Assembly: GCA_030378015.1 (NCBI GenBank)
Contig: JAUCGG010000001.1
Coordinates: forward strand, 1 to 49,644
DNA length: 49,644 nucleotides
Direction: 5' to 3'
Source: Desulfococcaceae bacterium HSG8
Lineage (GTDB): Bacteria; Desulfobacterota; Desulfobacteria; Desulfobacterales; 4be13
Of the stretch, positions 1-49,644 are shown in pieces. How positions within the stretch are numbered: the stretch's first letter is position 1; every line of letters starts with the position of its first letter. Under the pieces are notes generated by a model. The model worked only from the letters and a program-made list of their open reading frames with translations. It had not been told where the DNA came from and made no database searches. The translations under genes were made by a program, and so were the position numbers.

Positions 1-470
1 TAAAGGATATCCCAAAGTAGAACACTACTACAGCAACTTGTAAATTCCTCCCCCCTTTTTTAAAGGGGGGGGATTTCTGCCGCAACCTCCTTTTTTGTAA
101 CATAAAATCCCCCCGGCCCCCTTTAAAAGAGGGGGACGAACTTAAAAAGTGGTGTACAGCAACTTGTAAATTTCTCCCCCCTTTTTTAAAGGGGGGCCGG
201 AGGGGATTTCTGCCGCAACCTCCTTTTTTGTAACATAAAAGCAACCTCCTTTTTTGTAACATAAAATCCCCCGGCCCTTTAAAAAAGGGGGGGACGAACT
301 TAAAAAGTGGTGTACAGCAACTTGTAAATTTCTCCCCCCTTTTTTAAAGGGGGGCCGGGGGGGATTTCTGCCGCAACCTCCTTTTTTGTAACATAAAATC
401 CCCCCGGCCCCCTTTAAAAAAGGGGGGGATGAACTTAAAAAGTGGTGTACTACCATCTCAGGCGAGTTTT
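1..470. repeat. Three tandem copies of a C/G-run palindromic element
   Basis: Three successive copies, about 130-160 bp each, of an element whose ends read roughly CAGCAACTTGTAAATTTC and GACGAACTTAAAAAGTGG. Each holds two hairpins of the form CCCCCCTTTTTTAAAGGGGGG separated by a core (GATTTCTGCCGCAACC, then TTTTTTGTAACATAAAATC). The second copy has an internal duplication of the core at about 215-260. The open frames across it are by-products of the repeat and have no ribosome binding site. Related copies lie at 16946-17090, 20648-20685 (short form) and 31190-31300, the last inside a gene. No transposase is nearby, so this looks like a non-autonomous, MITE-like family. Confidence 0.85.
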
Positions 471-479
471 CGCATTTTA

Positions 480-1970
480 TTAACGGACAGCCTTCTCCGT
501 GTCAGACGAACGGATATAGATCGTGGGATAAATTCCCTTTTCCGCTCCTTCCCTATAGGGCTGCATGATATTGAAGGATATCTCCTGTCCTTTCTGAGCA
601 TGCCCCAGTGTTGAATCGGTGCCGTCATAAAGCGCGCCGTTGTCTTTCAGGATATGCTCAATCCGTGACTGAAAGGCATTGACAAACAGTTTCCCGGAAC
701 CCTTGAACTCCATGGCGCCCATCTTAATGCCCTCATCATCGGTTTCTATTTCCGCCAGTTCTTCGAGGGACATGCTGTGTTCTTCGAGGTCCCTGGCGTT
801 CCGGATATACCCCCACACAAGATGCCTGGGAGGAACGGTGACTGATTCTTCCAGATCAATGATAGTATGCGGTGCTATAATGCATTGTTCCCCGACCAGC
901 AGTGGCTGGGTCGGTTTTCCCAACAGATATGAATTGAATCCCACAAAGGTCCTCTCGCCCAGTTCTGAGTAGGAAATGGATGCCCCGTGCGCGGTTACAT
1001 TATATCCTTTGAGATTTGAAAAACCGATATAGCAGTTTTCCTGAGCATTTGCGCCCTTTCCGAGCGTGGCGTTTTCGATAAATGCCCGCTGGGAAATCAG
1101 GACGTTTTCCCCGATTTGATTTCCTCTCCCGATCAGCATCGCGTACCGGTTCACATGGGTAGTTTCCGGAACCGGGACCTGGTGTTTTCGGTCAACGACT
1201 TCATACAACTCCTGCAGATCCACTTTTCGGCTGTCCACGAGTTCCATGAATTTTCCACTGACCCCCCTGCCCGGTTCAAAACTTACATATTGTTCCAGGT
1301 TATTTATATCATGCTGATAATTGAATTCAAAATAACCACCGGGATTATCATCAGGAACCCTGATCCAAACCCTGCCTGACTCCACCCTGCAGTGGGACAG
1401 GTCTCCCACCTGGACATATGCGTACCGTCCTATAATGCAGTCGTGAACATGCGTCAGATCCACGGTGCTGAATGCCCCGAGAAAGCATCCGTCTGTAGGG
1501 GAGCCGTGAATGTTGGCATATGGCGCGGAAATCGTGTTTTTGATCAGGTAAAGATAAAATTCCTCGGGCCAGTGGGAATAATTGTGGACAAGGGTTTTAA
1601 CAAGAAAACAATTCCGGATGCGAATGATTTCCGGCCGCTTAATGATCACTTCTTCATCTCCGTGCTTGAAAACAGCCCCTTTTTCCTTTAGTTCATCTCC
1701 CCGCACGTCGCAATTATACAGCACGGAGTGATCCACTTCACACCTGCCGAGAAAATAAGTTCCCCCGAGATTTGAGTCGTTGAAATAAAATTGGAGCGGA
1801 TGGTGGGACCATATGCCGTAATAGGCATAATATTTAAGCAGGTCATCTATCCGGGTCATATTTTCCAGATACAAACTAGCCTCGAAGTGGGGTTCCTTAT
1901 TTTTGAATTCCCTGAGACTGAGGTTCACACGTTTGATAATGTGTTCAATGAGCTTTTCCAGTTGTTCCAT
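480..1970 (-). CDS. Hexapeptide-repeat (left-handed beta-helix) transferase-like protein
   Basis: A protein of 496 aa. The start is supported by AAGGAGG nine bases upstream of the ATG at 1970. An N-terminal helical part (about 1-60) precedes long stretches of imperfect hexapeptides, such as GRGNQIGENVLISQRAFIE and ATLGKGANAQENCYIGFSNL around residues 280-330, typical of left-handed beta-helix acyltransferases and nucleotidyltransferase C-domains such as GlmU. No nucleotide-binding N-domain is visible, so the enzyme activity is unknown. An acyl- or sugar-transferase-related scaffold is the likeliest reading. It stands alone between two repeat blocks, and the stop codon lies about 30 bp from the preceding repeat array. 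Confidence 0.6.
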   Translation of the reverse strand: MEQLEKLIEHIIKRVNLSLREFKNKEPHFEASLYLENMTRIDDLLKYYAYYGIWSHHPLQFYFNDSNLGGTYFLGRCEVDHSVLYNCDVRGDELKEKGAVFKHGDEEVIIKRPEIIRIRNCFLVKTLVHNYSHWPEEFYLYLIKNTISAPYANIHGSPTDGCFLGAFSTVDLTHVHDCIIGRYAYVQVGDLSHCRVESGRVWIRVPDDNPGGYFEFNYQHDINNLEQYVSFEPGRGVSGKFMELVDSRKVDLQELYEVVDRKHQVPVPETTHVNRYAMLIGRGNQIGENVLISQRAFIENATLGKGANAQENCYIGFSNLKGYNVTAHGASISYSELGERTFVGFNSYLLGKPTQPLLVGEQCIIAPHTIIDLEESVTVPPRHLVWGYIRNARDLEEHSMSLEELAEIETDDEGIKMGAMEFKGSGKLFVNAFQSRIEHILKDNGALYDGTDSTLGHAQKGQEISFNIMQPYREGAEKGIYPTIYIRSSDTEKAVR

Positions 1971-32340: not shown

Positions 32341-32480
32341 TTCGGATTCCTTTTTGCTGTTATATCTGATTATAACGGGGGGCTCCGATCCTCCGGCTCA
32401 GTCATCGAAAGCCCCCCGAGGCTGCCGTGAGCCGGGTTTACCCGGGTTTGAAAAATTCAGCCCGGAGATTCATCTCCGGG
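32341..32480 (-). promoter_or_regulatory. Structured leader between porin and caspase lipoprotein
   Basis: On the minus strand a stem CCGGCTCA / TGAGCCGG (32435-32428 with 32400-32393) encloses an inner AGCC / GGCT helix. Upstream of it a perfect hairpin CCCGGAGAT / ATCTCCGGG lies at 32461-32480, and close to the ATG a weaker GTTATA / TATAAC hairpin. The hairpin at 32461 follows the porin stop by 15 bases and may be a weak terminator or processing site; it lacks a good T-run. The 43-base structure resembles a regulatory leader but fits no riboswitch class I can name. Confidence 0.4.
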
Positions 32481-32495
32481 GTTTTCGTAGCCCCT

Positions 32496-33815
32496 TCAGA
32501 AATGAACGATAACAGATGAATAGAACATGTGTTCTTCCATGTCCTGGGAAAACTCCCAAGACTTGAGGATGTAAGCTCCGACATTTTTTCCGAACCGGCA
32601 CTGGTAAGCGATGTCGAAAATAACCTGTTTATAGCCGATACCGGAACCGATACTGAACCCGAAATAATCATCCGGGCTTCCTTCTGCCGGGGCAGGGTCG
32701 TAAAAGATTCCGCCGCGCAGCGGAATCACGTATTTTGAAGTGATGAAGAGATATTCCGCGCCGATCCGTACCTGATGCGTCGGGTCAATGTCACCCGGAG
32801 AACCTCCGGTAACGGGCGATGTTTTATCTCCCTCGGAATTCCTGAGAACAAAGTCGTCCCATTCGGTTCTGCAGATATCAGCGGACGCCGTGAATTCACG
32901 GGAAAACCTGTAAGCCATTCCGATGCCGTAAGACATGGGCATGTCCATTGCCGCGTTTTCATGAAGCGAACGCGATTCCGGGGAATCGGAGCCGGGCTGA
33001 ATATCGTAGGATGCCTGGTCGTGATCTATATCTGCCTCAAAAGGGGTTTTAAGAACCGCACCGATGCTGAATTTTTCAGTGATTCCCCATAAAAATCCGA
33101 AATTCATGTTGAAGCCGCTGAATGAATATCGGTCGGTGCTGCGGGCTTCAAAGGAGGACAGATTGCCGCCTGCATAGGCCCCCGTTCCTTCGAGGGAGAG
33201 TTTTTGTTCCCATTCGTTTTCAGTCAGCCCGTTATCCCACAGATTCAGTGTGACGCCGAAAGAGAAGCGAGGCATAACCTGGATGCACCAGGCAATTCCG
33301 AGTGCTGAGAGACCGCCTTCCTGCCGGTAATGAATGGTCTGATTTTTGGACAGTCCCTGTGAATTTACTGCGATACGAAAATCCCATTCCCGATTGAAAT
33401 CATAGAGGTGCTGGTAATTCAATGATACGATCATATTGCGCCCCCAAAGTTCAAAAGGGCAGGCTGCGCTGAAGTAGTTGAGGCGGATTTCGGATACAGT
33501 CTGATCACCGCCCGCTCCCGGGCTGATGCCGAAAGTATTGTCTTCGATGCGGTGAAAAAAATTCCCTGCGTATGAAATTTCCGGCAGTTCCAGTTGAATA
33601 AGGCCGCCCGGATTCCAGGAAGCTGCGGTGGCGTCATCTGCAACTGCAATGAATGCTCCGCCCATTCCGAGTGCCCTGGCTCCGGAGCCGACAGGATTCG
33701 GGGATGAAGGAATTTCGATCCTTCGGATTTCAGGAAAAACTGGGTCTGCAATGATGAGAATGGCGATAAAGGCATACAGGATAAATCGCATTTGCTTGGA
33801 GAGTCCTCGAAACAT
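32496..33815 (-). CDS. OmpP1/FadL-type outer-membrane porin
   Basis: A protein of 439 aa with an N-terminal signal (about 1-28), the FadL-family opening NPVGSGARALGMGGAFIAVADDATAASWNPGGL, about fourteen alternating beta-strands and a terminal phenylalanine (VIVHF) as needed for Bam recognition. FadL proteins let hydrophobic molecules through the outer membrane by lateral diffusion. The start is the ATG at 33815, with GGGAG eight bases upstream, only 12 bases after the stop of the giant protein gene, so the two are cotranscribed. The proximity to caspase-type surface proteins suggests a shared envelope function. Confidence 0.82.
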   Translation of the reverse strand: MFRGLSKQMRFILYAFIAILIIADPVFPEIRRIEIPSSPNPVGSGARALGMGGAFIAVADDATAASWNPGGLIQLELPEISYAGNFFHRIEDNTFGISPGAGGDQTVSEIRLNYFSAACPFELWGRNMIVSLNYQHLYDFNREWDFRIAVNSQGLSKNQTIHYRQEGGLSALGIAWCIQVMPRFSFGVTLNLWDNGLTENEWEQKLSLEGTGAYAGGNLSSFEARSTDRYSFSGFNMNFGFLWGITEKFSIGAVLKTPFEADIDHDQASYDIQPGSDSPESRSLHENAAMDMPMSYGIGMAYRFSREFTASADICRTEWDDFVLRNSEGDKTSPVTGGSPGDIDPTHQVRIGAEYLFITSKYVIPLRGGIFYDPAPAEGSPDDYFGFSIGSGIGYKQVIFDIAYQCRFGKNVGAYILKSWEFSQDMEEHMFYSSVIVHF

Positions 33816-33827
33816 TTTAAGTTCTCC

Positions 33828-36800
33828 CTATGGTTTTAAAATCTGTTTAAAAGGCTGAACCCCGTCGCAAAACCCGAACAGGGTAATTTCCCCGTTTTCA
33901 TCCTGCGGAACTTCCAGATCATATCGTCCGTCCCCTTCGCAGGAAAAGGTATGCTGACCGTTCGCCAGCACCATCGCGCACAGGGGCGTTCCGTCTTCGT
34001 CTGTAACGGTTCCGCTGATTCTCACCTGCCCGGATTCCGCGGGTTCCGTATCAGCAGTCAGGGTCATATACCTGCTGTCCGGAGCCGCGGGCTGCATGAT
34101 GATATCAATATCCGCTGCTTCTTCCGGCCCAAGAATCTCTCTGAACGGCGCAAGTCCGTCGCAGAACGCGAACAGGGTGATTTCCCCGTCTTCGTCCTGC
34201 GGAACTTCCAGATCATATCTGCCGTCTCCATCGCATGAGAATGTGTGCTGACCGTTCGCCAGCACCATCGCGCACAGGGGAGTGCCTTCGTCATTCAGAA
34301 CTGTTCCGCTGACTCTCACCCATTCCGAAGCCTCGTAAGGTTCCAGTTCAAAGTCCTCGGTGACTGCCTCATCCTCTTCCATGATCACGGGACGGGCCAT
34401 CGGCCCGTAGCCCGGGGCCTGAACCGTCATTGTGAAGCTCCCGGGTCTCCTTATGATACGGTATGTGCCGTTCGGGTAAGTGAGGTTGGAGAATCCGTCG
34501 TCCGTGATGATCACGGCCTCTCCGAGCGGTTCCCCGGATTCCGCATCTGTCACCGTGCCGGTCAGTTCTCCCCGGAAATCGCCCACGGGCTGATACAGTT
34601 CGAGAGCATACCCGGTATTTTCCCCGAAAAAGCCGGGGTTCATATTCCCCAGTTTCACGAAGAAAAGTCCGGTGTACGGGCATTCCCAGTCCAGGACTGC
34701 TTCGTCGCCCGCGGTTTCCGTTTTCGCCAGCATTGTGCGGTCGCTATCGTAAATTTCCGCGGCCGCATCGCAGGTGTCGCTAAGGTTGCTGACACGGATC
34801 TGATAGGTCTGCCCCTCGATACCGTAAAATTTTGTCCAATCCTCGTCACCGGCATCGTGGAAGGTGTGATACTGAGGAGTCGCTCCGTTGATCATGATGA
34901 TGCCTGCCTGAAGGAAGGTGTCATCACCTTCGTATTCGTCAGCGTATTCCGATGTCCCTGTCCGGGTGACAGAGGTCCGGGCGGGCAGGGAGACAGAGCC
35001 TCCGGCATCCTCCGCATAAACGGTGATGAGATATGTGCCGTCCCGGGTAAAGCCGTTGTAAAGGGCTTTGTAAGTTCCGTCATTGTCAGGATCATGAAGT
35101 TCCGCTGTAAAAATAGTCGGGGACGCGGGGTCGGAATCGGGCGGGATAATTTCGGCCCATACCCGTGCGATCCCGCTTTCGCTGTTTACATGAGCCTCTA
35201 TGGTCGCGAAGGTATCTTCCTTCAGAAACTGATCTTCGGATACCCCGGTGATGTAATCCCTTTCCTTTTCCGTTGTAATGGTTCTGAACGTGGAATATAC
35301 GCCCTTGCTGCTCACCGCGCAGAAGGTGATGCTGTAAGTCCCTCTTGCCGTGAAGTTGTCGTAAATCCCTTCGTAAAATCCGTCGCTGTCAGGATCACTC
35401 AGTTCGACTTCTGGAAGGTCTGTCACAGGTGTATCCGGCGATCCTGGGTCGAATCCGGGCGGTTCGATGATGGCCCATACCCGGCGGATTTCGGCCTTGT
35501 CTTCGGAATAGCTCACCGCGGCCCGGAGTGTGGCCGCGGTTTCCCCGCTGTAAAGTGTCTCCGGTTCGGATGATGTGTCATAAATGTAGGGAACATCCAG
35601 GGGCGGGCGATATCCCCTGCGAATCCTCTTCATTTCGTCTTTCAGGATTTCATCCGCTGGCTGCTCGTTTCCGATGCCGTTTCCGTTGACATCCATAAGC
35701 GCGGTCTGGTAGGATGCCATCTGATCTCTGGCCCGGAAAAAGGCTTCGTCAGCATTCCTGCCTTTGTAAACCGCATCCCAGAACTGGTAGGAAAAGGAGA
35801 GGGTTCCGCGGCCGATGAAATAGGCAGATTCTCCTGCTGACGCGCTGGCTATGGTGATACGTTCCGCATCGGAAGGCGGACGCAGGTGAGGAAGGAAGGT
35901 GCCGGATTCGCACGCATCATAGACAAAAAGCACGGGGACGGGAGAGGCTGTCTGAAGATTATCCAGCCAGTTGTCAAGTTCTTCCGCGCTGAGAACTTCT
36001 TCAGCATTGATTTTGAAGCGTCCGTCTGTGCCGTGATCTACAAGATAAAGGAGAAGCTGGGTGGCATAAGGTTCCTCTTTTATCCAATCGTTTATCGCGT
36101 ATGACAGGTTGTCGTGAGTGGCGGGCGCGTCAACTCTTTCCGAATCTGCTTCGGGGCTGAGGTAGTAAATGCTTTCCGCTGTGTAGCCTTGGTAAAGCAG
36201 GGCTTCGTATGCGTGTTCGGCAGCCATGCGGGTTTCTTTCCAGATTTTGTTGTCGGGGGCGGAACTGCCTCCGGCGAGGATGATGGCTTTGGTGTCTAAA
36301 AGATAGGATTCTTCAGGAGTGACGAAGGTGATCGCTCCGGGGAGTTCATGGCTTTCCTCTTCATTTAAAACCCTCAGTGTGTAATGGCCTGGGATTTCGG
36401 GACCGGGAATGGTGAGGGAAATGCTTGTCTGAGTTACTTTGTCAGGTATGACCTCAATCACCGAAGGCACAGTCAGAATCTGTAAGCCGCCATCCAGAGC
36501 TGCCACAAAAGCAGTTGTGCCAGACACCGTCACTCCCCAGGCTAAACCCGGCATTCCAATCGACCCGATAAGAGAAGGATTTCGAGGATCACTCACGTCT
36601 ATAATCTGTAGCTTACCATCTGCTACAAAAGCAGTTGTGCCGGACACCGCCACTCCGAGGGCTTGACCCGGTGTATTTGCGGCCCCGATAATGACAGGGT
36701 TCCTGGGGTCGCTCACATCTGCTATCTGCAAGCCGCCATCCATAGCCGCTACATAAGCAATCGTGCCGGATATCGCTACTCCTGTGGCTTCACCCGGCAT

Positions 36801-39800
36801 ATCTGCAGATCCGATAATGACAGGGTTCGCGAGGTCGTTCACATCTGCTATCTGCAAACCGCCATCCATAGCCGCTACATAAGCAATCGTGCCGGACACC
36901 GCCAATCCCCAAGACTGACCCGGCGTATTTAGAGATCCGATAATGACAGGATTCCTGGGGTCGCTCACGTCTGCTATCTGCAGGCCATATCCATCCGCCA
37001 CATAAGCAGTTGTACCGGACACCGTCACTTCCATGGCATAAGCCAGCCTATCAGCTACCCCGACAATAACAGGGTTTGCGGGGTCGCTCACATCTGCTAT
37101 CAGTAAGCCGCCATCCCCGTCAGCCACATAAGCGGTCGTGCCGGATACTGCCACTCCCCAGGCATCACCCGGTGTATGTGCAAACCCGATAATGGCAGGG
37201 TTTGCGGGGTCGCTCACATCTGCTATGTGCAAGCCATACCCATCCGTCACAAAAGCATTCGTGCCGGATACTGTCACTTTGGCGGCTTCACCTCGTGTAT
37301 CTGCGGACCCGGTAATGAGTGGGTTCCTGGGGTCGCTCACGTCTGCTATCTGTAAGCCGTCTTCCCAAGCCGCCACATAAGCGGTCGTGCCGGACACTGC
37401 CACTCCCCGGGCACCATCCGGTGTAACTGCGGATCCGATAATGACAGGGTTCCGGGGATCGCTTACGTCTGCTATCTGCAAACTGCCATTTGTTGCGTCC
37501 GTCACATAGGCAGTCGTGCCAGACACTGCCACTCCCGAGGCATAAGCCGGTGTATCAGCGACCCCGATAATGACAGGGTTCGCGGGGTCGCTCACATCTG
37601 CTATCTGCAAGCCGCCCTCTCTGTCCGCCACATAAGCGGTTATACCGGACACTGCCACTCCGGCTGCATGATCCGGGGTATCAACGGCCCCGATAATGAC
37701 AGGGTTCGCGGGGTCGCTCACGTCTGCTATCTGCAATCCGCCTTCTCTGTCCGCCACATAAACGGTGGTGCCGGACACTGCCACTCCCCAGGCATAATCC
37801 GGGGTATCAACTGCCCCGATAATGACAGGGTTCGCGGGGTCGCTCACATCTGCTATCTGCAATCCGCCATCCCAATCCGCCACATAAGCGGTCGTACCGG
37901 ACACCGCCACTCCCCAGGCTTGACCCGGTGTACCTGCGGTCCCGATAATGACGGGGTTCCGGGGGTCGCTCACATCTGCTATCTGTAAGCCGCCATCGCC
38001 GTCAGCTACATAAGCGGTCGTACCGGACACTGCCACTCCCGCTGCATCACCCGGGGTGTCAGCGGCCCCGATAATGACAGGGTTTGCGGGGTCGCTCACA
38101 TCTGCTATCTGCAAGCCGCCATCCCAATCCGCCACATAAGCTGTCGTGCCGGACACCGCCACTCCCCAGGCATAACCCGGAGTATCTGCTGACCCGATAA
38201 TATTTCTTTTACTCCAGCTATCTGAAATCATAAAAATTCTTGTATTATCATCAAATTTGTCACCGGTCAGCGTCACGTCTTTCAGAGCCTTTCCTGCCTC
38301 ACCGAGATTGGGATAAACGGATTCCGCTTTCAAAGGCATACCGATATGTTTCTCAGCAGTTGCAGCAGCTTTGAAAATTACAGCATCTTTCACATTATAA
38401 AGCTGACAATCGTTGCTGTCCCATATTTTAAACGTGATTTTTTCTCCGTCATTCTCCGACGTAACGGTGAAATGATATGTCCAGTCTCCGCCTGATTCGG
38501 TAATATCCGATATCCCCCGGCAGTCTGAATCTCCTCCCGGCCCGAAAGCAGCGACAGTATAACCTTCTGTTTCTATCTCTATATCATTTATATAAGCTTC
38601 TCCGTGAAGCTGCATTGCAAAATGTTCCGGCCTGTCGCAGTTCCAGTCCGGAGCAAAGGACACAGCTTCGGCTAACCGACTACTTTCCGTGTCATTAAAA
38701 ACCTTCAGCGTATAGCGACCGGCTGCCGCAGGAGCGGGAATGGTGAGGGATATGTCTGTTTCTCCCTTCACAGCGACGGGAACAATTTCCACCGGTACCG
38801 GCACGGTCATCATCTTCAGAGCAGCCACATAAGCGATGGTGCCGGAGACCGTCACTCCGAGGGCTTCAGCTTGCGTATCCATTGATCCGATAATGACAGG
38901 GTTCCGGGGATCGCTCACATCTGCTATCTGCAAGCCGCCAGATCCGCCCGCCACATAAGCGGTCGTGCCGGATACCGCTACTCCGAAGGCAGAACCGGGC
39001 ATATCTGCAAACCCGATAATGACAGGGTTTCGGGGGTCGCTCACATCTGCTATCTGCAGGCCGCCAGTTCCGTCCGCCACATAAGCGGTCGTGCCGGACA
39101 TCTCCACCCCCATGGAATAACCTGGGGTATCAGCGGCCCCGATAATGACAGGGTTTCGGGGGTCGCTCACATCTGCTATCTGCAAGCCGCCAGATTCGTC
39201 TGCCACATAAGCGGTTGTGCCGGATATCGCCACTCCCCTGGCATCCCCCGGGGTATCAACGGCTCCGATAACGACAGGGTTTCGGGGGTCGCTCACATCT
39301 GCTATCTGCAAACCGCCTTCCCAATCCGCCACATAAGCGGTCGTGCCGGACACCTCCACTCCGTAAGCAGCGGCCGGCATATTCACTGCCCCGATGATGA
39401 CAGGATTCCGGGGGTCGCTCACGTCTGCTATCTGCAAGCCGCCATCCCAAGCCGCTACATAAGCAATCGTGCCGGATATCGCTACTCCTGTGGCTTCACC
39501 CGGCATATCTGCAGATCCGATAATGACAGGGTTGCGGGGGTCGCTCACGTCTGCTATCTGCAAGCCAGCCCAATCCGTCACATAAGCAATGGTGCCAGAC
39601 ACCTCCACTCCCGATGCAACACCCGGATACGGCATATCTGCGGACCCGAGAGGTCTTTCCATATACATTGAAACCCTGGTATTCTCGTCAAATCCGCTTC
39701 CGGTCAGAGTGACCTGCAAATCCTTTCCTGCAACGCCGTGGTCCGGGGAAACGGATTCCAGTTCCAATGGTGCGTATTTTCCCCAGTTTAAAATGATGTT

Positions 39801-41216
39801 GCCGGAATCTCCGTCATACCCGTCCACAACGATATAATATTGCGTACCTGGCTGAGTCTGAAGGATAATATTGCTGTTTTTGGCAGTCAACCCCTCATCA
39901 TCGTTACTTACCACTTCTGTCAGACTGCCAAGGGCTGAACCGGTGTAAACTGCAAGAAATGTATTGAAGTTGCTCCCGCGTGTATCAAAATAAAATTGTT
40001 CGGTTTTCGGCGCTGTCCATCTCCACCATACCGATTTTCCTCCGATCCGATTCGCGTGATCCGGTTCGTCCGCCTCCCGGGTGGCAAAAAAATTTGATCC
40101 GCTTGTACGCCCGGACAGCCCAGTGAGCATAACCGCGTCAGAAAAGTTATCATTTTCCGGTCGTGTTAAGACAGTCTTATACTTTTGATATTCATTATTA
40201 TTTTCGTCGGATTCTGCTACATCATTACCCGCATCACAGATTAATCTTAATGTATATGTTCCCGCCTGAGAAAAGGTATATTTAAAATCTTCTACAGAAG
40301 CATAATGGTCTTGTTGTAATCCTTCTGTATAAAACACTTTTATCCGAGTCTCATTGATATAAAACTCCGTATAAAATGTTTCATTAATATCCGCGCTGCC
40401 ATTATTTTCAATAGCAAGGTCAATGTATGCCGTTTCCCCGGCCAGCACAGGTGTATCACTGTATGTATGGGGTTCAGCGGATACCACAATCTTGTCATCC
40501 CAGGTATTATTATATGGTCTCCAGGGTGCTATGTCAGGTTCACCACCGACATTCGGAATATTCTTGCTGCGCTCATATTCGTTATCACTCTCATCTGATT
40601 CTGCCACATCATTATCCGGATCACATACCAGTTTCAATGTGTAGGTTCCTGGCTGAGAGAAAGTGTGTTCCACATCTTCCACAAAAATATAATAATCTTG
40701 TTCTAATCCGTCAGTGTAACCCCGGTATATCTGACTCCCGTTGATATACATCTCATCATAGAACCCCTCGTTAATGTCCGCGCTGCCATCATTTACATAG
40801 GCAAAATCAATATATACGGTTTCCCCGGCATACACCGTTTTTTCAGTATTGGTATCAGGTTTATCTGACACAACAATTTTATCATCCCATTCATCCGGCT
40901 TGAAGGGCGTCAGGTTGGGATATCTTTCTGATTTACTCCTGCCATACCCTTCTCCTGCCTTGCCATACCTCTTTTTACCGTTAACATCCGATGCTTTTGC
41001 ATAAGGATAACTTTTCACAGACCGCGAAATCGGAGGGCTGAAGCCATCCTTGTCCCGGTCTTTTTTATCTCGTCCATGTACAATAATTCGTTTTTCAAAG
41101 ATAACCCGTTCCTGTGATTTTTCTGTTCCATCTGATGCCTCGGACATCAGGGAACATGTAAAGAAAATACAAAGCACTGCCAGTATGATCCGGCTGATTT
41201 CATATCTGTTCTGCAT
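33828..41216 (-). CDS. Giant secreted LVIVD-propeller protein with clan-CD protease domain (giant 1)
   Basis: A protein of 2462 aa. Signal peptide (about 1-27), two CARDB-like domains (about 105-345) and a PPC-like domain (about 360-475) come first. Then come an IPT/TIG half-domain, seven LVIVD repeats (about 520-805) and the other IPT half. A surface module containing YTVAAFGPGGDSDCRG (about 860-960) follows, then a second split IPT around 14 LVIVD repeats (about 1000-1585). The protease domain has LLLYLVDHGTDG (His near 1729) and LFVYDACESGTF (Cys near 1768), as in legumain/caspase-clan peptidases. Ig-like, PPC-like and carboxypeptidase-regulatory-like repeats end in FCDGVQPFKQILKP. The start is the ATG at 41216, with AAGGAGG upstream; the frame extends to 41309 through a palindrome. 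Confidence 0.85.
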   Translation of the reverse strand: MQNRYEISRIILAVLCIFFTCSLMSEASDGTEKSQERVIFEKRIIVHGRDKKDRDKDGFSPPISRSVKSYPYAKASDVNGKKRYGKAGEGYGRSKSERYPNLTPFKPDEWDDKIVVSDKPDTNTEKTVYAGETVYIDFAYVNDGSADINEGFYDEMYINGSQIYRGYTDGLEQDYYIFVEDVEHTFSQPGTYTLKLVCDPDNDVAESDESDNEYERSKNIPNVGGEPDIAPWRPYNNTWDDKIVVSAEPHTYSDTPVLAGETAYIDLAIENNGSADINETFYTEFYINETRIKVFYTEGLQQDHYASVEDFKYTFSQAGTYTLRLICDAGNDVAESDENNNEYQKYKTVLTRPENDNFSDAVMLTGLSGRTSGSNFFATREADEPDHANRIGGKSVWWRWTAPKTEQFYFDTRGSNFNTFLAVYTGSALGSLTEVVSNDDEGLTAKNSNIILQTQPGTQYYIVVDGYDGDSGNIILNWGKYAPLELESVSPDHGVAGKDLQVTLTGSGFDENTRVSMYMERPLGSADMPYPGVASGVEVSGTIAYVTDWAGLQIADVSDPRNPVIIGSADMPGEATGVAISGTIAYVAAWDGGLQIADVSDPRNPVIIGAVNMPAAAYGVEVSGTTAYVADWEGGLQIADVSDPRNPVVIGAVDTPGDARGVAISGTTAYVADESGGLQIADVSDPRNPVIIGAADTPGYSMGVEMSGTTAYVADGTGGLQIADVSDPRNPVIIGFADMPGSAFGVAVSGTTAYVAGGSGGLQIADVSDPRNPVIIGSMDTQAEALGVTVSGTIAYVAALKMMTVPVPVEIVPVAVKGETDISLTIPAPAAAGRYTLKVFNDTESSRLAEAVSFAPDWNCDRPEHFAMQLHGEAYINDIEIETEGYTVAAFGPGGDSDCRGISDITESGGDWTYHFTVTSENDGEKITFKIWDSNDCQLYNVKDAVIFKAAATAEKHIGMPLKAESVYPNLGEAGKALKDVTLTGDKFDDNTRIFMISDSWSKRNIIGSADTPGYAWGVAVSGTTAYVADWDGGLQIADVSDPANPVIIGAADTPGDAAGVAVSGTTAYVADGDGGLQIADVSDPRNPVIIGTAGTPGQAWGVAVSGTTAYVADWDGGLQIADVSDPANPVIIGAVDTPDYAWGVAVSGTTVYVADREGGLQIADVSDPANPVIIGAVDTPDHAAGVAVSGITAYVADREGGLQIADVSDPANPVIIGVADTPAYASGVAVSGTTAYVTDATNGSLQIADVSDPRNPVIIGSAVTPDGARGVAVSGTTAYVAAWEDGLQIADVSDPRNPLITGSADTRGEAAKVTVSGTNAFVTDGYGLHIADVSDPANPAIIGFAHTPGDAWGVAVSGTTAYVADGDGGLLIADVSDPANPVIVGVADRLAYAMEVTVSGTTAYVADGYGLQIADVSDPRNPVIIGSLNTPGQSWGLAVSGTIAYVAAMDGGLQIADVNDLANPVIIGSADMPGEATGVAISGTIAYVAAMDGGLQIADVSDPRNPVIIGAANTPGQALGVAVSGTTAFVADGKLQIIDVSDPRNPSLIGSIGMPGLAWGVTVSGTTAFVAALDGGLQILTVPSVIEVIPDKVTQTSISLTIPGPEIPGHYTLRVLNEEESHELPGAITFVTPEESYLLDTKAIILAGGSSAPDNKIWKETRMAAEHAYEALLYQGYTAESIYYLSPEADSERVDAPATHDNLSYAINDWIKEEPYATQLLLYLVDHGTDGRFKINAEEVLSAEELDNWLDNLQTASPVPVLFVYDACESGTFLPHLRPPSDAERITIASASAGESAYFIGRGTLSFSYQFWDAVYKGRNADEAFFRARDQMASYQTALMDVNGNGIGNEQPADEILKDEMKRIRRGYRPPLDVPYIYDTSSEPETLYSGETAATLRAAVSYSEDKAEIRRVWAIIEPPGFDPGSPDTPVTDLPEVELSDPDSDGFYEGIYDNFTARGTYSITFCAVSSKGVYSTFRTITTEKERDYITGVSEDQFLKEDTFATIEAHVNSESGIARVWAEIIPPDSDPASPTIFTAELHDPDNDGTYKALYNGFTRDGTYLITVYAEDAGGSVSLPARTSVTRTGTSEYADEYEGDDTFLQAGIIMINGATPQYHTFHDAGDEDWTKFYGIEGQTYQIRVSNLSDTCDAAAEIYDSDRTMLAKTETAGDEAVLDWECPYTGLFFVKLGNMNPGFFGENTGYALELYQPVGDFRGELTGTVTDAESGEPLGEAVIITDDGFSNLTYPNGTYRIIRRPGSFTMTVQAPGYGPMARPVIMEEDEAVTEDFELEPYEASEWVRVSGTVLNDEGTPLCAMVLANGQHTFSCDGDGRYDLEVPQDEDGEITLFAFCDGLAPFREILGPEEAADIDIIMQPAAPDSRYMTLTADTEPAESGQVRISGTVTDEDGTPLCAMVLANGQHTFSCEGDGRYDLEVPQDENGEITLFGFCDGVQPFKQILKP

Positions 41217-42219: not shown

Positions 42220-45200
42220 CTATGGTTTTAAAATCTGTTTAAAAGGCTGAACCCCGTCGCAGAACCCGAACAGGGTAATTTCTCCGTTTTCATCCTGCGG
42301 AACTTCCAGATCATATCGTCCGTCCCCTTCGCAGGAAAAGGTATGCTGGCCGTTTGCCAGCACCATCGCGCACAGGGGAGTTCCGTCTTCGTCTGTAACG
42401 GTTCCGCTGATTCTCACCAGCCCGGATTCCGCGGGTTCCGTATCCGCGGTCAGGGTCATATATCTGCTGTTCGGAGCCGCGGGCTGCATAGTGATATCGA
42501 TATCCGCTGCTTCTTCCGGCGCAAGAATCTCTCCGAACGGCGCAAGCCCGTCACAGAACGCGTACATGGTGATTTCCCCGTTTTCATCACGCGGGGCTTC
42601 CAGGTCATATCTGCCGTCTCCGTCGCATGAAAAGGTGTGCTGACCGTTCGCCAGAACTATCGCGCACAGGGGGATGCCTTCATCATCCAGGACGGTTCCG
42701 CTGAGTCTCACCCATTCGGGAGCCTCGTAAGGTTCCAGTTCAAAGTCCTCGGTGACTGCCTCGTCCTCTTCCATGATCACGGGACGGGCCATTGGCACGT
42801 AGCCCGGGGCCTGAACCGTCATTGTAAAGCTCCCGGGTCTCCTGATGATCCGGTATGTGCCATCAGGATAGGTGAGATCGGAGAATCCGTCGTCCGTGAT
42901 GACCACTGCTTCTCCGAGCGGTTCCCCGGATTCCGCATCTGTCACCGTGCCGGTCAGTTCTCCCCGGAAATCGCCCACGGGCTGATACAGCTCGAGAGCA
43001 TACCCGGTATTTTCCCCGAAAAAGCCGGGATTCAGATTCCCCAGTTTCACGAAGAAAGGTCCGGTGTGCTGGCATTCCCAGTCCAGGACTGCTTCAGTGC
43101 CAGCGGTGCCAGTGTTTTCCGTTTTTGCCAGTATTATACCGTCTGTATCATAAATTTCCGCGACCGCATCGCAGGTGTCGCTAAGGTTGCTGACCCGGAT
43201 CTGATAGGTCTGCCCCGATATGGCGTAGAATTTTGTCCAGTCCTCGTCGCCGCCATCGTGGAAGGTGTGATACTGGGGAGCCGCTCCGTTGATCCTGATG
43301 ATGCCTGCCTGAAGGAAGGTGTCATCACCTTCGTATTCGTCAGCGTGTTCCGATGTCCCTGTCCGGGTGACAGAGGTCTGGGCGGGCAGGGAGACAGAGC
43401 CTCCGGCATCCTCCGCATAAACGGTGATGAGATATGTGCCGTCCTGAGTAAAGCCGTTATAAAGGGCTTCGTAAGTCCCGTCATTGTCAGGATCATGAAG
43501 TTTTTCGGTAAGAATCGTCGGGGAGTCGGGATCGGAATCCGGCGGGATGATCTCTGCCCATACCCGTGTGATGCCGGTTTCGCTGTTTACGTGCGCCTGT
43601 ATGGTTGCGAAGGTCTCTTCGTCCAGAGACTGATCTTCGGATACCCCGGTGATGTAATCCCTTTCCTTTTCCGTTGTAATGGTTCTGAACGTGGAATATA
43701 CGCCCTTTTTGCTCACCGCGCAGAAGGTTATGCTGTATGTGCCTCTTGCTGTGAAGCTGTCGTAAATTCCTTCGTAAAATCCGTCCCTGTCCGGGTCGGT
43801 CAGTTCCACTTCGGGGAGGTCTGTCACAGGGGTATCCGGTGATCCGGGGTCGAATCCGGGCGGTTCGATGACTGCCCATACCCGGCGGATTTCGGACTTG
43901 TCTTCGGAATAGCTCACCGCAGCCCGGAGTGTGGCCGTGGTTTCCCCGCTGTAAAGGAATTCCGGTTCGGATGATATGTCGTAGATATAGGGGACATCCA
44001 GGGGCGGGCGGTATCCCCTGCGGATTCTCCTTGCTTCATTTGTCAGGTTCTGATCCTCAGGCTCGTTTCCTACGCCGTTGCCGTTCGTATCTATGAGCGC
44101 TGTCTGGTAGGGCGACATCTGATTTTTTGCCTGTAAGAAGGCTTCGTCAGCATTCTTACCATTGTAAACCGCATCCCAGAACTGGTAGGAAAAGGAGAGG
44201 GTTCCGCGGCCGATGAAATAGGCGGATTCTCCTGCCGACGCGCTGGCTATGGTGATACGTTCCGCATCGGAAGGCGGGCGCAGGTAGGGAAGGAAGGTGC
44301 CGGATTCGCACGCATCATAGACAAAAAGCACGGGGACGGGAGAGACTGTCTGAAGATTATCCAGCCAGTTGTCAAGTTCTTCCGCGCTGAGAACTTCTTC
44401 AGCATTGATTTTGAAGCGTCCGTCTGTGCCGTGATCTACAAGATAGAGGAGAAGCTGGGTGGCATAAGGTTCCTCTTTTATCCAATCGTTTATAGCATAT
44501 GACAGATTGTCGTGAGTGGGGGGAGCGTCAACCCTTTCCGAGTCTGTTTCGGGGCTGAGGTAGTAAATGCTCTCCGCTGTGTAGCCCTGGTAAAGCAGGG
44601 CTTCGTAGGCATGTTCGGCAGCCATGCGGGTTTCTTCCCATATTTTGTTACCGGGGTCGGAACCGCCTCCAGCGAGGATGATGGCTTTGGTGTCTAAAAG
44701 ATAGGAGTCTTCGGGGGTGGCGAAGGTGACTGCGCCGTGGAGTTCGTGGCTTTCATTTTCATTGAAAACTTTCAGTGTATAATGGCCGGGTATCCGAGGA
44801 CCCGGAAGGGTCAGAGAGATATCTGTTTCATTGTTTACAGTGACAGAACTGATCTCAACCGGCATGGAAACCACAGAGATTCGTCCATCTTCGTTCAGGC
44901 GACAAACTATTCCGTCTTCTGATACATCATCTTCAGCGGAATCCGGGGCATCGGCCGAACCGATGATGACGGGATTTTCGGGGTTGGCGATGTCTATCAT
45001 ATGAAAGCGGCCATTCCCATCTGGCACATAAGCCTTTCCGGCTGACACGATGACATTACTGGCATAACCAGGTGTCTCGACCGAGCCGATAATGACGGGG
45101 TTTTCAGGATTTCCGATGTCAATCACCTGAAGAAGGCTGCTCCACTCTTCATTAAGGCTGCAGACCACATAAGCCTTTCCGTCTGAAACCGTGACATCAT

Positions 45201-48200
45201 AAATCTCCGGAATCTCGATTGATCCGGTGATGATAGGATTTTCAGGATTGCCGATGTCGATCACCTGAAGGCCGCTCCACTCTCCATTCTCTCCATTATT
45301 CCACAAGTCTGTATCATAAGGTCTGCAAACCACATAAGCTTTTCCGTCTGAGACCGTGACATCATAAATCTCCGGAATCTCGATTGATCCGGTGATGACA
45401 GGATTTTCAGGATTGCCGATGTCGATCACCTGAAGGCCGCTCCACTCTCCATAACTCCAAAATTCTGTATCATAAGGTCTGCAAACCACATAAGCTTTTC
45501 CGTCTGAGACCGTGACGCCGCGAGCCCAACTCGAGGTCCAAACCAAGCCAATGATAACGGGATTTTGGGGATTGCTGATGTCTATCACCTGAAGAGCACA
45601 TCTGTCGCACTCGGGCATATATTCAATAATATAATCGTCACAAGAAATCACATAAGCCTTTCCGTCTGAGACCATGACATCATTTGAGATGATGTCACCC
45701 CATCCATCGGCAAACCGGGGCCAGATGGTGGCATAGTTTTTTTCAGGATTGCCGATGCCGATCACCTGAAGGCCGCTCCGGCCATGAGTATGATAAACTA
45801 CATAGGTTTTTCCGTCTGAAACGGTGACACCGAAAACATCACCCGGAGTTTCAATCGAGCCGATGATGACAGGATTTTCAGGATTGTCTATATCAATCAC
45901 CTGAAGGCCGTCAGATGCCACATAAGCTTTTCCATCTGAGACGGCGACGCTACTGACGCTACTAGTCCCAAAGGCCCCAACTGAGCCGATGATGACGGGA
46001 TTTTTAGGATTACTGACATCAATCACATGAAAGCCGTAATATGCGTCCGCCACATAAACCTTTTCGCCTGAAACGGTGACATCGTTAGCGTCACCATAAT
46101 TAAAAGCATAACGCGGGAACTCGACCGCGCCGATGATGACAGGATTTTCAGGATTGCCGATGTCTATCACCTGAAGGCTGTCAGACACCACATAAGCTTT
46201 TCCATCCGAGACGGCGACGCCGCTAGCCATCCCCGGAGTCACGACCGATCCGATGATGATAAGATTTTCAGGATTGCTAATGTCTATGATCTGGAGAGCG
46301 CCATCCACTACATAAGCCTTTTCGTCCGAGACGGTGACATCAACAGCAATGCCCGGTGTATCGGCTGATCCGATGATAACGAGATTTTCAGGGTTGCCAA
46401 TATCTATGACCTGAAGCCCCTCTTCACCATCCGCTACATAAGCTTTTTCGTCTGAAACAGCTACGCTGTAAGCCCGTCCCGGAGTCTCGACCGAGCCGAT
46501 GATGACGGGATTTTCAGGATTACTGGCATCAATCACATGAAGGCCGTAATGTCCGTCCGCCACATAAGCCTTTCCGTCTGAAACGGTGACATCGCTCCTA
46601 ATAACAGAATCAAAATCATAATCCGGGAATTCAACCGAGCCGATGATCATTCTTTTGTTTCCTGTATCCAGGTACATAGAAACTCTCGTGTTTTCATCAA
46701 AGCCGGTTCCTGTAAGGACCACGTCCGCGTCGATATCCCGCGTCGCCACACCGAGATTGGGATAAACCGATTTCAGCTTCAAGGAGATATCAAGATTCTT
46801 ATTAACATATGAATCAGCTTTGAAAACAATTGCGTCTCCGATACTGCGAATCTGACCGGTATTGCTGTCCCATATTTTGAACGCGATTTTTTCACCGTTA
46901 TCATCAGCGGTAACGGTGAGACGATAGCTCCACTCCTCTTCGGAATTGAAAATATCTGCCTTACCCCGGCAGTCGGAATCCCCGCCGGGCCCGAATGCCG
47001 CGACCGTATAACCGTCCCCTTCCGCTCTGACACCATCAATCCATATACCTCCGTTAAGCTCCATTGTGAACTTTCCCGATTCAGGGTTCCAATCGGGAGC
47101 GAAAGCGATTGCACCGGGTAGTTCATCGCTTTCATTTTCATTGGAAACTCTCAGGGTGTAGCGGCCAGGTACCAGGGAGTCGGGAAGGGTAAGAGAAATG
47201 TCTGTCTCACTGTTTACGGTAAAGGGTCCGGTTTCGACTGACAAGGTAACAACAGATAGTCCGTAATTTCCCGTCACATAAGCTTTTCCGTCTGAGATGG
47301 TGACAAGCCAAGCCTCCCCCGGAATCTCGACCGAGCCGATGATCACAGGGTTTCCAGGATCACCGATGTCGATCACCTGAAGGCCATCACCATCCGTCAC
47401 ATAAGCCTTTCCGTCTGAGGTGCTGACAAGCCAAGCCTCCCCCGGAATCTCGACCGAACCGATAATAACGGGATTTTCAGGATTGCCGATGTCGATCACC
47501 TGAAGGTCGCTCCACTCTTCATAATATTCGGCGCAAGCCACATAAGCCTTTCCGTCTGATACGCTGACACCCCGAGCAGAACCCGGAGTCTCGACCGAAC
47601 CGATAATAACGGGATTCTCAGGATTACCGATGTCGATCACCTGAAGGCCACCATCCCAATCCGCCACATAAGCCTTTCCATCTGAGACTGTGACACCGAG
47701 AGCCTCCCCCGGAGTCTCGACCGAGCCGATGATGACGGGATTTTCAGGATTGCCGATGTCTATCACATGAAGGTCATCACCATCCGTCACATAAGCCTTT
47801 CCGTCTGAGGTGCTGACAAACAAAGCCCCCGGAATCTCGACCGAACCGATAATAACGGGATTTTCAGGATTTCCGATGTCTATCACATGAAGTCGTCCCC
47901 CATCGTACCAATAATTGTTTAGGCGACTAGTCAGATAAACCCTTCCGTTTGAGACGGCGACATCATAAGCCGCAGTCGGAGTCTCGACCGAGCCGATGAT
48001 GACGGGATTTCCAGGATTGCTAATGTCTATCACACTAAGGCCGCTCCACTGTTTTTCATCTCCATATCCGCTGCAAGCCAGATAAGCCTTTCCGTCTGAG
48101 ACTGTGACACCCCAAGCATCCTCCGGAGTCTCGACCGAGCCGATATCCGGGTAGATGATGACTTCGGTATTCTCATCAAACCGGGCTCCTGTCAGCGTCA

Positions 48201-49644
48201 CTTCAAGAACCTGCCCCGCTATCCCCTGATCAGGAGAAACCGATTCCAGTGTCAGGGGGATGTCAAGATTCTTATTGACATACGAGTCTGCTTCAAAAAT
48301 GATTGTGTCTCCGATGCTGTGAATCTGGCCGGTATTGTTGTCCCATATTTTAAACGTGATTTTTTCACCGTTACCATCCGCGGTAATGCTGAGGCGATAG
48401 TTCCACTCCCCTTCGGAATCTGTAATATCCGCTTTACCCCGGCAGTCGGAATCCCCGCCCGGCCCGAATGCCGCGACCGTATAACCCTCCCCTTCTGCTC
48501 TGGCACCATCAATCCATATTCCTCCGTGAAGTTCCATAGAGAGCTTTCCTGATTCCGGGTTCCAGTCTGGCGCGAAGGCGATTGCGTCGGGGAGTTCATA
48601 GCTTTCATTTTCATTGAAAACTCCCAGGGTATAGCGGCCGGGTATCCGGGGGCCGGGAAGGGTAAGAGAGATATCTGTCTCACTGTTTACGGTAACTGAC
48701 CAGATCTCGACCGGCAGGGGAAGGACAGACAGCCCGTAACTTTCGTCCGCAACATAAGCCTTTCCGTCTGAGACGGTGACACCCTGAACAGAACCCGGTG
48801 TCTCGACTGACACGATGATGACGGGATTTTCAGGATTGGCGATGTCGATCACCTGAAGGCCGCCATCATCATCCGCCACATAAGCCTTTCCGTCTGAGAT
48901 GGTGATATCCTTAGCATAACCCGGTGTCTCGACGGAGCCGATGATGACGGGATTTTCAGGATTGGCGATGTCGATCACCTGAAGGCCGCCATCCCTATCC
49001 GCCACATAAGCCTTTCCGTCTGAGATGGCGACATCATAAGTATCCCCCGGTGTCTCTACGGAGCCGATGATAACGGGATTTTCAGGATCGCCGATGTCGA
49101 TCACCTGAAGGCCGCCATTTCCATCCGCCACATAAGCCTTTCCGTCTGAAACGGTGACACCCCGAGCAGAACCCGGAGTCTCGACCGAGCCGATGATGAC
49201 GGGATTTTCAGGATCGCCGATGTCGATCACCTGAAGGCCGTCCCACTGTTCATATCCGCCGCAAGCCACATAAGCCTTTCCGTCTGAGACGGTGACACCC
49301 AGAGCATAACCCGGAGTCTGGACCGAGCCGATGATGACGGGATTTTCAGGATCGCCGATGTCGATCACCTGAAGGCCGCCATCATCCGCCACATAAGCCT
49401 TTCCGTCTGACACGGTGACACCGTAAGCAGAACCCGGAGTCTCGACGGAGCCGATGATGACGGGATTTTCAGGATTGCCTATGTCGATTATCTGAAGGCC
49501 GCCATCCCTATCCGCCACATAAGCCTTTCCGTCTGACACGATGACACCCCGAGCATAACCCGGGGTATCGACTGACCCGATAATCCTTGCAAGATATATG
49601 GAAACACCTGTGTTTTCATCAAAACCGGTTCCTGTAAGACTCAT
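42220..49644 (-). CDS. Giant LVIVD-propeller protein with clan-CD protease domain (giant 2, N-terminus outside window)
   Basis: A paralogue of giant 1, open from the window edge for 2474 codons; the ATG-like codon at 49644 is internal (SLTGTGFDENTGVSIY is the IPT half before a propeller). Visible in order are an LVIVD array of seven repeats, module, array of seven, module and array of 13, each array between two halves of an IPT/TIG domain. Then come the protease domain with YLVDHGTDG (near 44430) and VYDACESGTF (near 44310), Ig-like and PPC-like domains and the same C-terminal repeats, ending FCDGVQPFKQILKP. Repeats read DGKAYVADGDGGLQVIDIGN and NPVIIGSVETPG. The last 2.5 kb is nearly identical to giant 1, while the propeller repeats differ in consensus. 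It may begin another operon upstream. Confidence 0.85.
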   Translation of the reverse strand: MSLTGTGFDENTGVSIYLARIIGSVDTPGYARGVIVSDGKAYVADRDGGLQIIDIGNPENPVIIGSVETPGSAYGVTVSDGKAYVADDGGLQVIDIGDPENPVIIGSVQTPGYALGVTVSDGKAYVACGGYEQWDGLQVIDIGDPENPVIIGSVETPGSARGVTVSDGKAYVADGNGGLQVIDIGDPENPVIIGSVETPGDTYDVAISDGKAYVADRDGGLQVIDIANPENPVIIGSVETPGYAKDITISDGKAYVADDDGGLQVIDIANPENPVIIVSVETPGSVQGVTVSDGKAYVADESYGLSVLPLPVEIWSVTVNSETDISLTLPGPRIPGRYTLGVFNENESYELPDAIAFAPDWNPESGKLSMELHGGIWIDGARAEGEGYTVAAFGPGGDSDCRGKADITDSEGEWNYRLSITADGNGEKITFKIWDNNTGQIHSIGDTIIFEADSYVNKNLDIPLTLESVSPDQGIAGQVLEVTLTGARFDENTEVIIYPDIGSVETPEDAWGVTVSDGKAYLACSGYGDEKQWSGLSVIDISNPGNPVIIGSVETPTAAYDVAVSNGRVYLTSRLNNYWYDGGRLHVIDIGNPENPVIIGSVEIPGALFVSTSDGKAYVTDGDDLHVIDIGNPENPVIIGSVETPGEALGVTVSDGKAYVADWDGGLQVIDIGNPENPVIIGSVETPGSARGVSVSDGKAYVACAEYYEEWSDLQVIDIGNPENPVIIGSVEIPGEAWLVSTSDGKAYVTDGDGLQVIDIGDPGNPVIIGSVEIPGEAWLVTISDGKAYVTGNYGLSVVTLSVETGPFTVNSETDISLTLPDSLVPGRYTLRVSNENESDELPGAIAFAPDWNPESGKFTMELNGGIWIDGVRAEGDGYTVAAFGPGGDSDCRGKADIFNSEEEWSYRLTVTADDNGEKIAFKIWDSNTGQIRSIGDAIVFKADSYVNKNLDISLKLKSVYPNLGVATRDIDADVVLTGTGFDENTRVSMYLDTGNKRMIIGSVEFPDYDFDSVIRSDVTVSDGKAYVADGHYGLHVIDASNPENPVIIGSVETPGRAYSVAVSDEKAYVADGEEGLQVIDIGNPENLVIIGSADTPGIAVDVTVSDEKAYVVDGALQIIDISNPENLIIIGSVVTPGMASGVAVSDGKAYVVSDSLQVIDIGNPENPVIIGAVEFPRYAFNYGDANDVTVSGEKVYVADAYYGFHVIDVSNPKNPVIIGSVGAFGTSSVSSVAVSDGKAYVASDGLQVIDIDNPENPVIIGSIETPGDVFGVTVSDGKTYVVYHTHGRSGLQVIGIGNPEKNYATIWPRFADGWGDIISNDVMVSDGKAYVISCDDYIIEYMPECDRCALQVIDISNPQNPVIIGLVWTSSWARGVTVSDGKAYVVCRPYDTEFWSYGEWSGLQVIDIGNPENPVITGSIEIPEIYDVTVSDGKAYVVCRPYDTDLWNNGENGEWSGLQVIDIGNPENPIITGSIEIPEIYDVTVSDGKAYVVCSLNEEWSSLLQVIDIGNPENPVIIGSVETPGYASNVIVSAGKAYVPDGNGRFHMIDIANPENPVIIGSADAPDSAEDDVSEDGIVCRLNEDGRISVVSMPVEISSVTVNNETDISLTLPGPRIPGHYTLKVFNENESHELHGAVTFATPEDSYLLDTKAIILAGGGSDPGNKIWEETRMAAEHAYEALLYQGYTAESIYYLSPETDSERVDAPPTHDNLSYAINDWIKEEPYATQLLLYLVDHGTDGRFKINAEEVLSAEELDNWLDNLQTVSPVPVLFVYDACESGTFLPYLRPPSDAERITIASASAGESAYFIGRGTLSFSYQFWDAVYNGKNADEAFLQAKNQMSPYQTALIDTNGNGVGNEPEDQNLTNEARRIRRGYRPPLDVPYIYDISSEPEFLYSGETTATLRAAVSYSEDKSEIRRVWAVIEPPGFDPGSPDTPVTDLPEVELTDPDRDGFYEGIYDSFTARGTYSITFCAVSKKGVYSTFRTITTEKERDYITGVSEDQSLDEETFATIQAHVNSETGITRVWAEIIPPDSDPDSPTILTEKLHDPDNDGTYEALYNGFTQDGTYLITVYAEDAGGSVSLPAQTSVTRTGTSEHADEYEGDDTFLQAGIIRINGAAPQYHTFHDGGDEDWTKFYAISGQTYQIRVSNLSDTCDAVAEIYDTDGIILAKTENTGTAGTEAVLDWECQHTGPFFVKLGNLNPGFFGENTGYALELYQPVGDFRGELTGTVTDAESGEPLGEAVVITDDGFSDLTYPDGTYRIIRRPGSFTMTVQAPGYVPMARPVIMEEDEAVTEDFELEPYEAPEWVRLSGTVLDDEGIPLCAIVLANGQHTFSCDGDGRYDLEAPRDENGEITMYAFCDGLAPFGEILAPEEAADIDITMQPAAPNSRYMTLTADTEPAESGLVRISGTVTDEDGTPLCAMVLANGQHTFSCEGDGRYDLEVPQDENGEITLFGFCDGVQPFKQILKP

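Follow-up and report, generated by a model that had tools for sequence, protein, structure and literature searches.

A seven-bladed propeller inserted in another domain is known from prolyl oligopeptidase, in which an alpha/beta hydrolase hosts just one propeller. The LVIVD repeat (PF08309), 42 residues long, was first reported from cell surface proteins in 2004 (PMC2447325). Both this repeat and the IPT/TIG domain (PF01833) are known, while their nesting seems undescribed in searchable papers: we found no relevant description in the open-access literature of a propeller inserted in a TIG or immunoglobulin (Ig)-like domain, and the single paper that mentions both LVIVD and TIG seemed unrelated, judged by its title. 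Here we examine a window of 49,644 nucleotides from Desulfococcaceae bacterium HSG8 (contig C122, positions 1-49644), in which two giant proteins, giant 1 (G1; P0001) and giant 2 (G2; P0002), carry five LVIVD arrays, in the cassettes G1a and G1b (cassettes 1 and 2 of giant 1) and G2a, G2b and G2c (cassettes 1-3 of giant 2). Our reading, to which we assign a probability of about 0.92, is that such an array forms one or more complete seven-bladed propellers seated in the loop that joins strand C of an IPT domain to strand C', velcro-closed and extended in sevens.

Tandem 42-residue LVIVD repeats exceed the curated cut-off in both proteins (E = 1.1e-172 in giant 1 and 1.1e-142 in giant 2). In giant 1, Pfam also reports CARDB, Peptidase_C13, CarboxypepD_reg and a few weak matches, and TIG appears in the whole protein as a fragment under threshold (aa 517-547). 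Standard annotation therefore misses the architecture, since all that profiles detect is this weak IPT fragment and an array of repeats. The IPT/TIG half-motifs that a sequence-only reading had placed at 36310-39755 are present, and the same layout recurs, as it had proposed, at all five arrays of both giants, each flanked by both halves of one IPT/TIG domain (the N half of G2a is cut by a gap).

The strongest evidence for the nesting comes, by sequence comparison, from an empty site in Desulfonema magnum. Searching five genomes of the family with a profile of the joined halves gave continuous matches in D. magnum (G001), where three neighbouring proteins carry an intact IPT domain (for example LTQVYPNLGVINQELSATLRGTGFDKSSTKVYIFKDKDDSNKTEITQISSVSSTEIALTIPAQTEKGQYTLKVSDDEKNENDVLEGAISI) followed by the same caspase-like domain. 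The two halves are separated there by about 10 residues, compared with 300 to 600 in the proteins of the window. Two of the intact domains score 27.6 and 34.4 bits with Pfam TIG (curated cut-off 20.9 bits), and the third scores 15.5, under the cut-off. Using BLASTP, the D. magnum protein Dm1 aligned collinearly with two split proteins on either side of the array: with C188 (query residues 3-40 and 48-403 matching 49-85 and 674-1006, respectively) and with L058 (query residues 1-40 and 54-394 matching 144-182 and 792-1133). Because intact IPT is the widespread form, a state before insertion is a simpler reading of the empty site than later loss. D. magnum also holds a nested cassette (L022:7839-8948), with an N half and about seven blades, that breaks off in the last blade and is followed by an unrelated frame; it is apparently disrupted. 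In L056:2-5695 (G002:C238), about 80 residues without LVIVD blades lie between the halves of the same IPT domain (aa 1202-1352), which suggests, from sequence, that the IPT loop may tolerate various insertions.

We next joined the halves and scored them with Pfam TIG. In G1a, the N half alone reached 20.0 bits (profile 3-36), the C half alone gave no match and the joined halves reached 24.1 bits. Joined halves also passed the cut-off in C178a (23.3), L024 (24.9), L025 (31.1), L058 (30.9), L090 (40.5), L091 (30.5) and L019 (47.6), with the break point near profile positions 35-43 in the passing cassettes. In L019, the joined match covers positions 1-83 of 84, made up of an N half of 26.1 bits (1-35) and a C half of 16.6 bits (43-83). 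For further tests in 17 cassettes we made our own TIG profile out of 19 such domains that are uninterrupted in D. magnum and genome G002; the controls were 300 shuffles, reversed half order and an N half joined to a shuffled C half. When 1376 windows of 50 aa from eight giant proteins were scanned, the top 45 all lay on the halves, N or C, with no blade among them. N halves exceeded their shuffles in 17/17 cassettes (p 0.003 to 0.007), and joined halves outscored the reversed order in all 17 and the N half with a shuffled C half in 16, L092 being the failure. In the home genome, where both halves were delimited in 12 cassettes, the latter comparison held in 12/12 (p 0.003 to 0.023). C halves alone exceeded shuffles with p <= 0.013 in 14 of the 17; C178a and L094 gave 0.03 to 0.04, and L092 was at chance level. 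The C half of G1a scored 7.3 bits, higher than all 300 shuffles. Against solved structures, a profile of the joined halves (A1) found nothing significant, although a weak match to the plexin-C1 IPT domain (E = 1.3) spans the junction; the joined L019 halves gave no phmmer match at E <= 0.1.

These results bear on a different view of the flanks, as two separate small domains: a truncated IPT domain preceding the array and, following it, an unrelated bundle of Ig-like strands. Whole-protein Pfam annotation, with its N half only and under cut-off, would fit that view, as would the rarity with which C halves by themselves match TIG. However, the intact D. magnum domains hold both halves close together ahead of the same peptidase domain, the C half of L019 by itself matches positions 43-83 of the TIG profile, and most C halves stand above their shuffles. 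We therefore consider two separate domains very unlikely. The claim of the sequence-only reading that the joined halves give one IPT domain is upheld by the empty-site homologues, the Pfam TIG passes, the closed propeller and flanking strand order in the AlphaFold2 model of G1a and the recurrence of the layout.

Eight more nested arrays occur elsewhere in the home genome, where paralogues lie on contigs C188, C48, C191, C230 and C178. The C191 paralogue is additional to these eight: its array and C half are present and its N end falls at the contig end. One could also pair the halves across cassettes, each C half with the next N half, so that the propellers become linkers between ordinary IPT domains; in the multi-array giants an N half does follow the C half after about 100 residues. 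Yet C188, C230, L025 and L019 contain a single N half and a single C half with the array between, and so allow one pairing only. A domain paired across cassettes would, moreover, be circularly permuted relative to IPT, and we give this arrangement next to no credence.

We used AlphaFold2 to model cassettes G1a and G1b, running the first with 18 sequences and assigning strands by DSSP. The G1a model (predicted local distance difference test (pLDDT) 90.7, predicted template modelling score (pTM) 0.86) contains a ring closed on itself that matches seven-bladed propellers over model positions 48..335 (Z 37.3, root mean square deviation (rmsd) 1.5 to 7big). The N flank forms strands at 12-17, 20-22, 27-34 and 41-46, corresponding to A, A', B and C, and the C flank forms strands at 336-338, 348-353, 360-367 and 372-382, corresponding to C', E, F and G. 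The connections are short, with only 4 residues between IPT strand C and the propeller's outer strand and 2 between the last blade and C'. That segment C is modelled as a strand at all is consistent with the halves packing together, since its Ig neighbours (F and C') lie only in the other half. The earlier expectation that a prediction for giant 1 would have the flanks packed as one sandwich is thus borne out as to IPT strand order, and only indirectly as to the packing itself; the VIA-align lists of both models are filled by propellers and hardly probe the IPT part. In the G1b model (pLDDT 83.1, pTM 0.66), VIA-align delimits two separate seven-bladed rings (52..341 and 346..630), and a low-confidence hinge at 344-346 coincides with the start of the second velcro strand predicted by strand order.

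The short distance from the N flank to the outer strand of the last blade would also suit flanks that belong to the propeller, whether as part of an eighth blade or as a cap that closes the ring. The seven blades nevertheless close without them, and the stand-alone LVIVD proteins L021, L026 and L098 have 14 repeats and no detectable IPT halves. We regard this possibility as negligible, in keeping with the sequence-only reading, which had placed the flanks outside the propeller.

Blades were counted with a blade hidden Markov model (HMM). In the home genome, arrays have 7 blades in G1a, G2a, G2b, Ua, Ub, Uc, C178a and C230 and 14 in G1b, C188, C48 and C178b; only G2c has 13, and the C191 array is cut by the contig end. 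In other genomes, 14 blades were counted in L019, L020, L023, L024, L025, L058, L090 and L091, while L057 has arrays of 7 and 21; L092-L095, with degenerate blades, have about 21 judged by length. The notion of 'a propeller' in each loop is accordingly better stated as one to three complete seven-bladed propellers. The counted home-genome arrays start with a lone outer strand (blade-model positions ~30-41; read by eye in G1a) and end with a partial blade (positions 1 to ~20), except for Ub, C191 at its contig end and G2c at its end. As the first element of most arrays is a lone outer strand, which their closing blade is missing, the entry and exit of the propeller adjoin, and a propeller can therefore replace a hairpin turn and leave the host fold unbroken. 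On our reading, the last blade takes its outer strand from the residues right after IPT strand C (velcro closure), and its third strand passes straight into IPT strand C'; extra propellers come in sevens, 14 blades giving two and 21 giving three.

In arrays of 14 and 21 blades, similarity between blades showed no rise at lag 7, and the arrays thus bear no visible trace of simple duplication of a whole propeller. As blades 7 apart are no more alike than others, blade number appears to have been kept although single blades were homogenised. Stand-alone arrays without detectable IPT halves (L021, L026, L027 and L098) were found in widely separated phyla. The 14 repeats of three of them suggest that the LVIVD family usually takes the form of tandem double propellers, and counting in sevens is thus a trait of the family and not of the nesting.

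Several observations weigh against our reading. Closure must be different in Ub, where no separate outer strand precedes the first blade, and in G2c, with its 13 blades. Joined halves fell under the Pfam TIG cut-off or gave no match in G1b, C188, Ua, L020, L057b, L092 and L094. The probable packing of the halves into one sandwich draws on homology and DSSP strand order, and the weaker G1b model falls to a pLDDT of roughly 50-80 over its IPT residues. Finally, C188 lacks catalytic residues and C230 lacks the peptidase domain. In the caspase-like domain of C188 (L010:2287-5643), both motifs are lost (LLYMTGSSSD and IYDASQPQG) and Pfam gives no C13 match; judged by its sequence, it is probably a pseudo-peptidase. 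On balance, sequence comparison, the empty-site homologues and the models together establish the nested architecture at the level of predicted structure, and domain insertion, velcro closure and tandem rings are established or strongly supported.

To determine how widely the layout occurs, we surveyed 395 Desulfobacterota genomes with a profile of the N half and first blade (E <= 1e-10). Matches were found in 18 genomes, many over blades only; the N half was covered in the home genome, G305, G256, G347, G329, G311, G271 and G086, and at a contig end in G130. Seven of the matched loci (L090-L096) were read, and C halves follow the arrays (by eye in L093 and L096). The nesting proposed to recur in other Desulfobacterota is, by these sequence criteria, present in at least five families, and also in L019, from a metagenome-assembled genome labelled archaeal. 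That label is doubtful because the contig carries a long open reading frame (ORF) that, to our reading, resembles a Tn3-type transposase, and the contig may be misbinned. In other phyla, 16 genomes were reached through the loci, and among the matches listed only G399 (the L019 record) extends well into the N half. The 'designed or duplicated cassette' of the sequence-only reading is better described as an old insertion that was duplicated; that the layout is more than chance is borne out by the tests with our TIG profile.

Giant 1 occupies 33828-41309 on the minus strand (2493 aa counted from a TTG); an ATG 31 codons downstream, ahead of a signal-peptide-like stretch, is the likelier start from the sequence. 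Giant 2 lies at 42220-49644 on the same strand, with cassettes 2 and 3 complete and cassette 1 present from MSLTGTGFDENTGVSIY only. As a scaffold gap of 99 N adjoins the window's right edge (C122:49645-49743, also L009:646-744), giant 2 is incomplete and the N half of its first cassette is cut. The gap sits within a repeat of near-identical cassettes, and the 1686-residue ORF across it (L009) contains three further cassettes and has the same IPT motif at its end; giant 2 probably continues into this ORF as a single protein of more than 4000 residues. The features of both giants are listed below.

Positions of the nested cassettes and caspase-like domains in the window
Feature	Positions	Strand	Basis
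G1a N half of IPT/TIG (A, A', B, C)	39657..39767	-	aa 515-551; Pfam TIG and AlphaFold2 strands
G1a 7 LVIVD blades, one closed seven-bladed propeller	38799..39650	-	blade HMM, AlphaFold2
G1a C half of IPT/TIG (C', E, F, G)	38655..38798	-	aa 838-885; own TIG profile, AlphaFold2
G1b N half of IPT/TIG	38208..38333	-	aa 993-1034
G1b 14 LVIVD blades, two tandem seven-bladed propellers	36465..38207	-	blade count, AlphaFold2 and VIA-align
G1b C half of IPT/TIG, directly before caspase-like domain	36324..36464	-	aa 1616-1662
Giant 1 caspase-like / Peptidase C13-like domain, approximate boundaries	35565..36308	-	PF01650 E 1.5e-06, aa 1751-1830
G2a N half of IPT, truncated (MSLTGTGFDENTGVSIYL), at gap	49591..49644	-	same motif before gap in L009
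G2a 7 LVIVD blades	48724..49590	-	blade HMM
G2a C half of IPT	48574..48720	-	
G2b N half of IPT	48145..48255	-	aa 464-500
G2b 7 LVIVD blades	47245..48144	-	blade HMM
G2b C half of IPT	47101..47244	-	aa 801-848
G2c N half of IPT	46654..46782	-	aa 955-997
G2c 13 LVIVD blades, sole exception to sevens	44866..46653	-	blade HMM
G2c C half of IPT, into caspase-like domain	44722..44865	-	aa 1594-1641
Giant 2 caspase-like / Peptidase C13-like domain, approximate boundaries	43960..44706	-	PF01650 E 9.5e-06, aa 1730-1809

Other features were noted around the cassettes. A conserved domain of about 100 residues (VAAFGPGGDSDCRGKADI ... KITFKIWD) follows the internal IPT cassettes (giant 1 aa 888-990, ~38340-38650); it has equivalents in giant 2 and L009 and further copies in L020, L023 and L058, and Pfam gives no match at that place. 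The C-termini of both giants carry two copies of a cysteine-bearing LCAMVLANGQHTFSC module, while dockerin-like repeats (GDxNGDGxVxLxDAV...) end many paralogues and relatives (the L010, L011, L012, L013, L014, L020 and L054 proteins). Downstream of giant 1 on the same strand (29311-33815, minus), two further proteins are encoded: one is an outer membrane protein resembling OmpP1/FadL (Toluene_X), and the other, of 1009 aa, combines a C14 caspase domain with a glucodextranase-B-like one. At L059:1840-2226 (G000:C75), an IPT N half in frame with a nucleotidyltransferase-like N terminus is followed by a stop, forming a stray cassette fragment.

By sequence, the caspase-like domains of both giants carry the motifs of a His-Cys dyad (HG and ACESG; LVDHG and DACESG in giant 1). 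The propellers could act as rigid side arms off a secreted stalk of Ig-like modules (signal-peptide-like start, CARDB, IPT) and as binding platforms that would bring partners or substrates to the adjoining secreted caspase-like peptidase. We offer this function, side arms on a stalk serving a C13-like peptidase, tentatively and at somewhat less than even odds. Some members may only bind, to judge by C188, which has lost the catalytic residues, and by C230, which has lost the domain. It is an even question, in our judgement, whether the IPT C-C' loop is an insertion site for whole folded domains, where complete propellers come and go as units (7, 14 or 21 blades), changing the number of side-arm binding platforms and leaving the peptidase-bearing stalk unchanged.

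Because the nested architecture escapes standard annotation, such proteins may be misread as strings of separate domains. The family offers an unusually clear natural domain insertion: the loop of the same host domain may be empty, may hold the other residues of L056, or may hold one to three propellers, a series from which the order of events can be traced. Multiples of seven combined with homogenised blades raise the matter of how blade number persists while single blades recombine, and, for protein design, a velcro-closed propeller can evidently sit in an Ig hairpin.

Compared with known systems, both halves reproduce the profile and strand order of IPT/TIG, which has uninterrupted homologues in relatives, but the C-C' loop here holds ~280 to 900 residues of propeller. 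The repeat is the 42-residue LVIVD repeat, nested here, unlike in the stand-alone proteins. The nearest solved sequence relative of the propeller is the haloalkylphosphorus hydrolase/phosphotriesterase of Sphingobium sp. TCM1 (5hrm, 5ioj; E ~1e-10), also the top Foldseek match, with a likeness that spans propeller positions only. The domain after the last IPT matches legumain-type Peptidase C13 (PF01650) and shares its HG and ACESG motifs, although the match is weak and covers only profile positions 110-188 of 258. The 14-blade insert matches the tandem double propeller 2ymu over model positions 40..629; given an rmsd of 13.5 over the whole, its rings are oriented differently, and we know of no host domain for 2ymu.

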